A program made the translations under genes and the position numbers. From positions 909,001 through 973,000 of the forward strand of contig NZ_CP052859.1 in assembly GCF_012935695.1 (NCBI RefSeq): DNA of 64,000 nucleotides. Direction: 5' to 3'. The DNA is from Pseudomonas sp. ADAK18 (lineage in GTDB: Bacteria; Pseudomonadota; Gammaproteobacteria; Pseudomonadales; Pseudomonadaceae). The notes under the pieces were generated by a model. The model worked only from the letters and a program-made list of their open reading frames with translations, searched no databases and was not told where the DNA came from. Of this stretch, positions 14,807 to 40,843 are shown one piece after another (the first letter of the stretch is position 1; every line of letters begins with the position of its first letter).

Positions 14807-14918
14807 GGTGGGAGTTGTCGAGCCCCAGCGAGGCTGCGATAGCGGTGGGTCAGGCAGCATCAATGTTGACGGTGCCGACGCCATCGCAGCCTCGCTGGGG
14901 CTCGACAGCTCCCACATT
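14807..14918. repeat. REPIN downstream of the FKBP gene
   Basis: GGTGGGAGTTGTCGAGCCCC...GCTGCGATAG and its complement ending GGGGCTCGACAGCTCCCACATT form about 35-base arms around a 40-base centre. The gap 14660-14806 shows no gene. Confidence 0.88.
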
Positions 14919-14968
14919 GGATCTGCTTCGGTTGTTGGATCTCCATTCCTTAACTGACTGGCATTGGG

Positions 14969-15015
14969 AAAAGGGGATGCATTTATTTAATCGAAAATAA
15001 ATGCGTCCCCTTTTT
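14969..15015. terminator. Long bidirectional terminator-like palindrome
   Basis: GGGGATGCATTTATTT and AAATAAATGCGTCCCC pair across a 6-base loop, flanked by A-run and T-run on opposite sides, so it can end transcripts from both directions. It lies just after the leftward DUF3077-like gene. AAAAGGGGAC-type palindromes are also a known repeat type in Pseudomonas. Confidence 0.75.
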
Positions 15016-15019
15016 CGCC

Positions 15020-15346
15020 TCATGCGTGCATCGAAGTTGATTGCTCAACACCTTCCAGCACTCGATCAGCCTGTAACCGCGCCAGCTCAATCAACTGCGC
15101 GATCCCTAGCGCTCTCTCACGGCGCGATCCCTCCAGCTCAAAGGCCAGGTCGCAGATAAGCGCGTTGGCCGACGCCAGTGTTTCGCTGAGATTGACCAGC
15201 AAGTCTTCGGTGCCGATGCCGTCGGTCACGGTAAACATCTTGATGGGCGGATGGTTGGAGGGCTGCAAGTGAAAGTCGAGTGCCCGGTTTGCGGCTTTGC
15301 GCAAAGTGTCGGCGTTGAGCGGAGGGTTTGGGGTCGGTTTAATCAT
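15020..15346 (-). CDS. DUF3077/DUF6124-like small protein, copy 1
   Basis: 108 residues, leftward, with GAGGAGCTTCAC before the ATG. Layout: a conserved N-terminus (MIKPTPNPP), a helix with AANRALDFHL, a FTVTDGIGTEDLLVNLSETLASANAL core, and ARLQADRVLEG near the end. It is clearly paralogous to the protein at 40184-40516. Function unknown; the family is small and scattered in Pseudomonas genomes. Both copies have the same structured leader, so the mode of expression is conserved. No catalytic motif, TM segment or signal peptide is seen. Confidence 0.85.
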   Translation of the reverse strand: MIKPTPNPPLNADTLRKAANRALDFHLQPSNHPPIKMFTVTDGIGTEDLLVNLSETLASANALICDLAFELEGSRRERALGIAQLIELARLQADRVLEGVEQSTSMHA

Positions 15347-15399
15347 TGTGAAGCTCCTCAGGAAAGTGGAGCTGCCACTGATTCGCCGCGATGCGATGG

Positions 15400-15478
15400 G
15401 GTGGCAGCTGTGCGCAGGTTCGCGGACCGGTCCTAAGGCAACCCGGCATACCCGAAGGTATCCCGCGCACAGCCGCCA
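15400..15478 (-). ncRNA. C4-antisense-RNA-like structured leader, copy 1
   Basis: On the minus strand, GGCGGCTGTGC pairs with GCACAGCTGCC (11 pairs, one G-U) and encloses a C(UUCG)G-capped hairpin (GGGATACC/GGTATGCC) and a CCGG...CCGG helix with GACCGGTC. The 40571-40643 copy keeps every helix with compensatory changes. The layout resembles the phage/prophage C4 RNA family. It sits 54 bases before the DUF3077-like ATG. Confidence 0.6.
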
Positions 15479-15500
15479 TAGCGCCGCACAGTAGACGATA

Positions 15501-15536
15501 AAAAAGCGTCAACTGAAAGCGGGCGATAGCGCTTTT
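15501..15536 (-). terminator. Intrinsic-terminator-like hairpin upstream of C4-like leader, copy 1
   Basis: On the minus strand, AAAAGCG and CGCTTTTTT flank a 20-base loop and end in a T-run. A similar element lies at the same relative place in copy 2 (40661-40682). It would end transcripts arriving from further upstream. Confidence 0.5.
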
Positions 15537-15568
15537 GCTCTTAGAAAATCGCGGACCGCGAAGCCCGA

Positions 15569-15586
15569 CCGCTGCGTTTGCAGCGG
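15569..15586 (-). other. Conserved short hairpin upstream of DUF3077 cassette, copy 1
   Basis: CCGCTGC-gttt-GCAGCGG, a perfect 7-bp stem. Its counterpart in copy 2 is TCGCTG...CAGCGA (40716-40733). Role unknown. Confidence 0.45.
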
Positions 15587-15664
15587 TGTACGGAGACTAG
15601 AGAGCGGGTTTCCTAGGGGCAACCCCAAAACCCTGTCGGAAATTTCCTCGGTAGCAGCGGATGT

Positions 15665-40183: not shown

Positions 40184-40516
40184 TCAGGCTGCCGGATACT
40201 CTCTGTTCAGCGCCGCATCCACCAACAACTGTGCCATCTCGATCAACTGCACCACTGCCAGTACTTGCTTGCGGCTGGAGCCTTCAAGATGTCCGGTGCA
40301 GTCGTACGCGCTGACCGCCGCCGACTCAAGAATCTCGCTGGCATTGCTCAACGCTTCCTCGGTGCTGAGGCCGGTACGTACGGTGAAGAGTTTTTCTGAC
40401 GCAGGGGAGGCGGGTTGTGAGTGCAGTTCGTAATGCTTGAAGGCGCGCTGGGCGGCGTCGTGGAGTTTGCTGTCGTTCAAGGAGTAGGGCGGTGGGTTCG
40501 GGGTCACTTTTTTCAT
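40184..40516 (-). CDS. DUF3077/DUF6124-like small protein, copy 2
   Basis: 110 residues, leftward, with GAGGAGCTTCACC before the ATG. It shares with copy 1 the N-terminus (M..VTPNPP), a HDAAQRAFKHYEL-type helix, FTVRTGLSTEEALSNASEIL and QLLVDAAL near the end. Same structured leader. Function unknown. No signal peptide or TM segment. Confidence 0.85.
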   Translation of the reverse strand: MKKVTPNPPPYSLNDSKLHDAAQRAFKHYELHSQPASPASEKLFTVRTGLSTEEALSNASEILESAAVSAYDCTGHLEGSSRKQVLAVVQLIEMAQLLVDAALNREYPAA

Positions 40517-40570
40517 GGTGAAGCTCCTCTATGAGTAAGCACCTCCATCTCGCTACCACACGATGTAAGG

Positions 40571-40643
40571 AGGCGACTGTACACGGGGTGGTAGACCGGT
40601 CATAGAAACCCGGCAGGCCGAAGCCTCCCATGCACAGCCGCCA
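40571..40643 (-). ncRNA. C4-antisense-RNA-like structured leader, copy 2
   Basis: On the minus strand, GGCGGCTGTGC pairs with GTACAGTCGCC (11 pairs, two G-U), enclosing GGGAGGC-UUCG-GCCTGCC and CCGGGTT...GACCGGTC. Same helices as the 15400-15478 copy with compensating substitutions. It lies about 55 bases before the DUF3077-like ATG. Confidence 0.6.
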
Positions 40644-40660
40644 CAAAGCAGCCCGCACGA

Positions 40661-40682
40661 AAAAACGCCCTTGAGCGTTTTG
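40661..40682 (-). terminator. Intrinsic-terminator-like hairpin upstream of C4-like leader, copy 2
   Basis: On the minus strand, AAAACGC-tcaagg-GCGTTTTTT. It corresponds to 15501-15536 of copy 1 and would separate any upstream small transcript from the leader. Confidence 0.6.
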
Positions 40683-40715
40683 GGGTCTATGAAAGAACCG
40701 GGCTACCACACCCGT

Positions 40716-40733
40716 TCGCTGATTTTGCAGCGA
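40716..40733 (-). other. Conserved short hairpin upstream of DUF3077 cassette, copy 2
   Basis: TCGCTG...CAGCGA, the counterpart of 15569-15586. Role unknown. Confidence 0.4.
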
Positions 40734-40843
40734 CTCGCGAAGGTTCGCGGTGAGATCGACCGCAAGCAACCCTAAATCTGTGTGGGAACGGTCCCTCGGC
40801 CAGTTCCAACCTTTCACAAAACCTTAACCAAACCGTTTCACTC

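Follow-up and report, generated by a model that had tools for sequence, protein, structure and literature searches.

Private loop–target pairs suggest that Pseudomonas turned a phage repressor RNA, C4, into a set of silencers for small chromosomal genes

The DNA analysed here is a 64,000-nucleotide stretch of the genome of Pseudomonas sp. ADAK18 (the window; contig NZ_CP052859.1, positions 909,001 to 973,000). On its minus strand, a gene for a DUF6124 protein of 108 amino acids (15020..15346; PF19619, 88.4 bits) is preceded by a C4 antisense RNA (15397..15483) that lies 50 nt from the start codon. This unit, copy 1, has a relative on the same strand, copy 2, in which a C4 RNA (40566..40648) precedes a gene of 110 amino acids (40184..40516) matching both DUF6124 (PF19619, 72.6 bits) and DUF3077 (PF11275, 27.5 bits). 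The first-pass annotation had named the gene of copy 1 DUF3077-type. That description suits copy 2; copy 1, however, matches DUF6124 alone, with no DUF3077 match at E ≤ 1. The DUF6124 protein is predicted to fold into a small helical hairpin.

The closed RNA structure that had been described on the minus strand of copy 1 is real. In a covariance-model search with RF01695 (gathering score 45 bits), positions 15483-15397 align with the entire C4 model (1-87 of 87; 81.8 bits, E 1.7e-14) and positions 40648-40566 score 68.1 bits, so that the Rfam scan proposed in the annotation places both copies over the cut-off. The folding energies of both RNAs are better than those of 200/200 dinucleotide shuffles (z −3.7 for copy 1 and −5.2 for copy 2). 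Covariation over many leaders, the other check proposed, was followed across the 19 C4 RNAs of the ADAK18 genome: 98.0% of cells are paired, and 10 of the 27 pairs of the three-helix scaffold change on both sides (32 cells), a level reached by 0/500 shuffles. The claim of a conserved RNA structure, drawn from pairs that change together, is thereby borne out. Two details need correction. The outer helix exists but has a length of 17 bp in the Rfam model instead of the 11 bp given, and the UUCG hairpin is absent from the single-sequence minimum-energy fold of copy 1 but recovered across the 19 genome copies, where five of its five pairs change on both sides. At the level of sequence, fold and family membership are established. 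The structure at copy 1 is a true C4 antisense RNA, and the earlier wording that it resembles C4 captured the likeness but was too weak, since copy 1 belongs to the family and carries the set of target sites known from P1.

These sites fill the rest of the stretch 15347-15590 (a1/b1, a terminator-like hairpin, a2 and b2) and were absent from the first-pass annotation. Following the naming in P1, the hairpin loop is b′ and the linker before the closing strand is a′. In copy 1, b′ (GUUGCCUUAGGA, 15431..15442, minus strand as are all features below) is the variable 'barcode' and is unique among the 19 loops of the genome; a′ (UCCGCGAA) lies at 15419..15426. Both are complementary to sites on either side of the RNA. 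Downstream, a′ faces site a2 (15385..15391; duplex −10.6 kcal/mol), and b′ faces site b2 (15353..15363; −14.0 kcal/mol), which contains the Shine–Dalgarno sequence UCCUGAGGAGC and so sits at the ribosome-binding site; the best run in the loop–b2 duplex holds only four contiguous Watson–Crick pairs, or eight with G-U pairs. Upstream, a′ faces a1 (15554..15564; −13.1 kcal/mol) and b′ is partly complementary to b1 (15535..15548; −11.0 kcal/mol, own site ranking 6 of 19). The model of c4-a1b1, a family made up of C4 target sites, scores 41.8 bits at 15548-15600 of this locus (L006), under its cut-off of 46.7. Between b1 and C4 stands a hairpin with a seven-pair stem and a T run (15500..15536), a putative terminator, and a putative promoter −10-like box (CTCTAGTCT, 15594..15602) lies ahead of the a1 hairpin; similar boxes were seen by eye in several units of the same genome. 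Downstream of the DUF6124 gene, two inverted repeats were noticed by eye at 14840-15015 of the window, and the AT-rich one at ~14965-15015 is possibly the terminator of that gene.

Copy 2 has the same order of sites as copy 1, namely a1, b1, terminator-like hairpin, C4, a2, b2 and gene. Its loop b′ (GUUUCUAUGA, 40600..40609) pairs with b2 at the Shine–Dalgarno sequence (40526..40535) in a 9-bp duplex of −8.3 kcal/mol, and its linker a′ (UCUACCACCCC, 40585..40595) with a2 (40552..40561; −10.4 kcal/mol). The upstream part contains a c4-a1b1 element over the cut-off (40695..40747; RF03163, 49.8 bits against 46.7) with a1 at 40701-40711 (a′–a1 duplex −16.0 kcal/mol), followed by b1 (40684..40694; −7.2 kcal/mol) and a terminator-like hairpin with a T run (40660..40680).

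The neighbours of copy 1 are FlhB-type and FlhA-type genes, one on each side and both on the other strand; those of copy 2 are a phosphonate-type ABC transporter and a gene for cytochrome c biogenesis. Among nine neighbours scanned around the two copies, none was recognised as a phage gene (seven belong to flagellar, cytochrome c biogenesis or transport functions and two have no Pfam match), and a tblastn search for the copy 2 protein in 50,697 phage records found nothing. By these two measures the window units, unlike a P1-type operon, do not lie in a phage. The first-pass view of a phage-type RNA ahead of a small bacterial gene holds.

The ADAK18 genome (one contig, 6.47 Mb) contains 19 C4 RNAs over the cut-off, 14 DUF6124 matches and eight DUF3077 matches. 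A same-strand C4 lies within 800 nt upstream of 13/14 DUF6124 and 5/8 DUF3077 matches, and 13 of the 14 DUF6124 matches start 89-192 nt after it. Seen from the RNA, a DUF6124/DUF3077 gene follows C4 in 15/19 units. The exceptions are L002 and L011, where ORFs of 89-91 amino acids have no Pfam match over the cut-off, L005, where no ORF was found behind C4, and L015. In L015 the small gene has seemingly been lost, and the next ORF is a different one, membrane-protein-like by eye. The sole DUF6124 match without a C4 in this genome (L028, G000:C1:3051820) adjoins a PrrF RNA.

Across the genus, C4 was found in 36 of 40 sampled genomes (35 over the cut-off), with 667 matches in all and a maximum of 42 per genome, and DUF6124 in 32/40. 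The counts of the two rise together (Spearman 0.85, not corrected for relatedness), with C4 far exceeding DUF6124 in some genomes (38 vs 2 in G009, 28 vs 3 in G025). At the level of the class, at least 20 of 276 genomes, ADAK18 included, carry C4, and the highest count among the others is at least 10; 15 candidates were scored per genome, and these class-level counts are lower bounds. Copy 1 is thus one of a large set of barcoded chromosomal Pseudomonas units.

The relation between loop and target was examined in 134 of the 667 matches, mostly the best-scoring ones, including all 19 of ADAK18 (G000) and 30 of the 42 of genome G019; start codons were picked by a simple rule. When b′ was compared with the 75 nt after C4, the mean energy was −13.20 kcal/mol for the unit's own stretch and −7.50 kcal/mol for those of other units, and 0/10000 permutations reached the former. 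The own target was within the best 10% for the loop in 125/134 units, and, when ranked within the genome, in 17/19 units of ADAK18 and 27/30 of G019. For copies 1 and 2 the own target ranks first of 19; weak ranks in ADAK18 are those of L008 (7th) and L014 (15th of 19). In the 115 units with a start codon 40-60 nt after C4, the duplex has a median of 10 bp and extends from −17 to −8 relative to the start codon (medians). Runs of at least eight pairs occur in 93/115 own pairs versus 8.0% of non-own pairs, and in ADAK18 in 14/16 versus 15/240; in G019 such runs among non-own pairs (62/812) are not rare. The linker a′ has its own site in the best 10% in 122/134 units upstream and 97/134 downstream. 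Loop b′ does so for the upstream sites in 91/134, pairing with b1 being weak in some units. Further, the loops are all distinct within a genome, both in ADAK18 (19/19) and among the 30 units taken from G019 (30/30). Because the loops diverge in step with their targets, control in most units would be directed mainly at the unit itself.

One place on the chromosome allows this divergence to be seen between genomes. A G017 unit has its flank in common with copy 1 (89% over 1.27 kb). Five of the seven differences between the two C4 RNAs fall in the loop, and the Shine–Dalgarno region has changed too. The loop of copy 1 binds its own target better (−14.0) than that of G017 (−10.2 kcal/mol), while the G017 loop binds its own target and that of copy 1 about equally (−13.6 and −13.1 kcal/mol). 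Specificity at this place is therefore only moderately private, and weak for the G017 loop. In the corresponding unit of G004, the segment containing the Shine–Dalgarno sequence and the start has been lost.

Based on these observations, each unit is probably a single transcript carrying a self-specific antisense silencer. Judged from its sequence, the C4 RNA of copy 1 most likely silences its own gene by pairing of its loop with the ribosome-binding site. A promoter before a1 would give an RNA containing a1-b1, in some units a terminator-like hairpin, and then C4, a2, b2 and the gene. The 5′ end of C4 would probably be cut by RNase P, as in P1, where C4 is trimmed from a longer transcript to about 77 nt as reported in PMC5320573. 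The released RNA would act in trans, with b′ pairing with b2 and covering the Shine–Dalgarno sequence and a′ pairing with a2, and translation of the first ORF is proposed to be blocked as a result.

The first-pass annotation had suggested that the RNA may have been adopted as a cis element. Its placement of a phage-type RNA ahead of a small bacterial gene stands, but the anatomy (promoter- and terminator-like signals, a self-contained 87-nt fold, paired sites on both sides) is at least as compatible with an antisense RNA excised from the shared transcript, as in P1, as it is with a pure cis leader. In the latter, C4 would stay in the mRNA, its loop would form a long-range pseudoknot with the Shine–Dalgarno sequence, a1-b1 would compete, and the whole would be a self-contained translational switch. 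Loop and target do lie on the same strand within ~100 nt and change together, and the IsrK study invokes alternative folds of one long RNA in addition to a trans isoform (PMC4825925). However, the closed 17-bp C4 scaffold has been kept, which is more than cis pairing would seem to need; the C4 of P1 is annotated as a separate RNA in the same layout; and C4 RNAs of A. baumannii give processed read patterns (PMC5320573). We regard the pure cis leader as unlikely.

The part upstream of C4 adds a possible way to relieve the proposed silencing. In ADAK18, the c4-a1b1 model matches before C4 in 18/19 units (E ≤ 0.05; seven over the cut-off of 46.7), and the isrK model matches the stretch before C4 in 10/19 units (E ≤ 0.05), with only L004 over the cut-off. 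In the window units the scores for IsrK (RF01394) stay below its cut-off of 50, with 48.3 bits at 40660-40734 in copy 2 (L016) and 38.9 bits in copy 1. A terminator-like hairpin lies within 75 nt before C4 in 50/134 units against 2.0 expected from shuffles that preserve single-base content only, and in eight of the 19 units of ADAK18. In Salmonella, PMC4825925 describes a short IsrK that acts in trans to turn on translation of a blocked mini-ORF, the antirepressor then being translated by coupling to that mini-ORF. By analogy, transcription that stops at the terminator would yield a short RNA with a1-b1, which could soak up C4 because a1-b1 resembles a2-b2, and with C4 so occupied the gene would be translated, as with IsrK. 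We infer such a decoy for the terminator-bearing units; as the hairpin occurs in just 50/134 units, the step would not be general.

The genes behind C4 were tallied in 130 of the 134 units (no ORF was found in L005 and L110, and L015 and L134 were left out), using the second ORF in 17 units with a short first ORF. At Pfam E ≤ 0.01, which is not the curated cut-off and allows one member to match two families, there were 74 DUF6124, 28 DUF3077 (some both), three Bro-N and two QslA proteins; of the last, L151 is over the cut-off (32.2 bits) and L108 just under (24.9 vs 25). Two of the Bro-N proteins were examined and both are over the cut-off; one of them was also compared with phage families and matches antirepressors. 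The chromosomal C4 units with antirepressor-like Bro-N cargo include L046 and L164. No antirepressor gene lies under C4 in the window units, where the gene is DUF6124; elsewhere, Bro-N cargo occurs in 3/130 scanned units.

Some units carry a mini-gene before the main one. In 14/134 units (L004, L043, L044, L047, L049, L052, L054, L058, L062, L068, L102, L133, L137 and L154), a first ORF of 52-54 amino acids, directly behind C4, shares exactly four bases with a second, variable ORF; one further unit has an ORF of 57 amino acids whose overlap with the second is eight bases. The mini-ORFs of L044 and L058 have no PHROG match, and that of L044 has no Pfam match either. In units with such a 52-54 amino acid mini-gene and an ATGA overlap, the second gene would be blocked through coupling.

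A cargo family of known role is QslA, a LasR antiactivator (PMC13043044). It was found in 40 of 198 genomes of the family, and 30 loci were examined, the best one each from 30 of the 40 genomes with a match. C4 is present at 26/30 of them (L276-L305), upstream and on the same strand in 26/26. In these 26 units, the loop pairs with its own target at −15.79 and with others at −10.09 kcal/mol; 20/26 loops have their own target in the best 10%, and 0/10000 permutations reach the mean. The loop tends to match the first ribosome-binding site behind C4; in L299-L301 this site belongs to the qslA-like ORF itself, and in many other units a small leader and one more ORF precede the qslA-like ORF. L299 matches the sequence of the solved QslA structure 4ng2 (E 4e-27), and a C4-bearing locus of P. 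panipatensis is identical to it. Homology of QslA with DUF6124/DUF3077 was considered and rejected on profile similarity (hhalign probability 0.1). In another genus of the family, L192 shows C4 with c4-a1b1, a small ORF and then, by eye, an ORF resembling a LuxR-type receptor.

Small proteins, many copies and private antisense RNAs could also be expected of units akin to toxin–antitoxin systems, in which the small protein would be harmful and C4 its RNA antitoxin, with the logic of P1 icd; indeed, P1 Icd, encoded at the same place, is annotated as an inhibitor of cell division. However, a search of a defence library with six unit proteins gave no match at E ≤ 0.1, the repressor seems to be expressed from the promoter of the gene, and QslA, found under the same type of RNA, is described as an antiactivator (PMC13043044). 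We consider this reading very unlikely.

Relatives of these RNAs occur on mobile elements. C4 RNAs 82-84% identical to that of copy 1 were found in four of the 50,697 phage records. In the three of these that were examined, AlpA- and Rha-type regulators lie beside the C4 of phiAH14b, an integrase and a primase beside that of U10, and mainly unnamed genes beside that of Phipami28; 12 plasmid records match the C4 of L001. Such company would suit chromosomal units that are decaying relics, immunity modules of integrated satellites or phages since lost and now lacking function, and the gene or start has indeed been lost in some units (L005, and the unit of G004 that corresponds to copy 1 in position). 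This is highly improbable: loop–target pairing is kept in 125/134 units while the loops diverge, C4 and DUF6124 counts rise together over the 40 genomes (the uncorrected correlation given above), and the place of copy 1 is common to G017 and G004.

A further possibility is that chromosomal C4 RNAs form an immunity library, kept to silence incoming satellites, phages or plasmids with the same loop and target, the small gene being secondary. When four mobile C4 RNAs from named records were compared with chromosomal ones, the loops of phiAH14b and U10 were identical to a chromosomal loop and that of pBT2101 was one base off; the Phipami28 loop had no such match. For viral contigs, 82 C4 RNAs were read from 80 loci retrieved out of 102 matching stretches. 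Fourteen of their 28 distinct 12-nt loops equal a chromosomal one, whereas 2000 column shuffles gave a mean of 0.61 and a maximum of 4. Sharing between units of different cargo, in classes defined by text patterns and not by profile matches, amounts to 2/21 against 0.16 expected (~1% of shuffles). In ADAK18, L003 has a loop that binds its own target (−11.5 kcal/mol) less well than the ribosome-binding sites of two viral-contig units (L349 and L385; −18.8 and −17.6 kcal/mol). However, much of the sharing joins units of the same cargo, 26 of the 82 viral-contig units having DUF6124/DUF3077-like genes by simple patterns, so that it can be put down to shared ancestry or to prophage calls that extend too far; there is no clear cross-cargo excess at up to one mismatch (3/21 vs 2.02); and both window loops are absent from the shared ones. 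With part of the sharing due to descent and the cross-cargo excess gone at one mismatch, we call a role in immunity possible and go no further, and judge the immunity library itself quite unlikely. A combined proposal, in which barcoded C4 RNAs taken over from phages and satellites make up a growing library that both silences each unit's own small regulator gene (QslA in some lineages) and gives immunity to elements of the same specificity, their arrival possibly being sensed via loss of free C4, appears decidedly improbable.

Collectively, the private silencer remains our preferred reading, and the data suggest that a repressor RNA of phages has become, in Pseudomonas, a collection of silencers that are each private to their gene. 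If this is true, Pseudomonas commonly silences genes in this private manner with an RNA studied for decades as a repressor in phage lysogeny, and one chromosome can hold dozens of C4 copies that recognise themselves. Such a collection would be a natural set of largely blind antisense pairs in which to study how RNA specificity diverges. It would also hint at where the targets of the Acinetobacter C4-like RNAs may lie, give a handle on the unstudied DUF6124/DUF3077 genes, and link C4 RNAs to the LasR antiactivator QslA, a family whose role is known.

Among the closest known systems is the c4-icd-ant immunity region of P1 and P7. In the P1 record, used as a positive control, the annotated sites run a1, b1, C4, a2, b2, the last lying immediately ahead of icd; icd starts 51 nt after the annotated end of C4 and overlaps ant1 by the four bases ATGA. 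The Pseudomonas units share the RNA family, the site order, b2 at the ribosome-binding site and a start about 50 nt after C4, and 14/134 of them share the ATGA overlap to a second gene. Unlike P1/P7, they are chromosomal, reach 42 matches per genome, carry mostly DUF6124/DUF3077 cargo and have loops that all differ within the two genomes checked. In plasmid antisense copy control (RNAI, CopA), loop changes create mutually blind specificity groups; the Pseudomonas units resemble these in their loop-based specificity but do not control replication.

In A. baumannii, many C4-like RNAs (Group 1 sRNAs) have a variable loop and processed read patterns, as described in the available part of PMC5320573. 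The number of C4-type RNAs per genome and the variable loop recall Pseudomonas; that part of the source names no target, whereas the Pseudomonas loops were compared with the gene directly behind them. IsrK-orf45-anrP of the Salmonella Gifsy-1 prophage is similar in its short upstream RNA ending at a terminator, its blocked small ORF and its coupled second gene (PMC4825925), and the isrK model matches the corresponding stretch of ten of the 19 ADAK18 units, differing in that L004 alone is over the cut-off; the terms 'C4 antisense' and 'bacteriophage P1' have no occurrence in the available text of PMC4825925. Weinberg (2010; PMC2864571) lists c4 and c4-a1b1 in Proteobacteria and phages, and in the section available their rows read Y, N, N, the second of which we take as cis-regulation. 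The Rfam family c4-a1b1 (RF03163) is the upstream element of the Pseudomonas unit, as seen at 18/19 loci of ADAK18, and no gene is linked to it in that section of PMC2864571. Similarly, among open-licence papers, including the available parts of PMC2864571 and PMC12189769, none was found to tie C4 to DUF6124/DUF3077 genes. The RNA class is thus a known one, and what is new is its multiplication together with private loop–target pairs, DUF6124, DUF3077 and QslA cargo and an IsrK-like front part.
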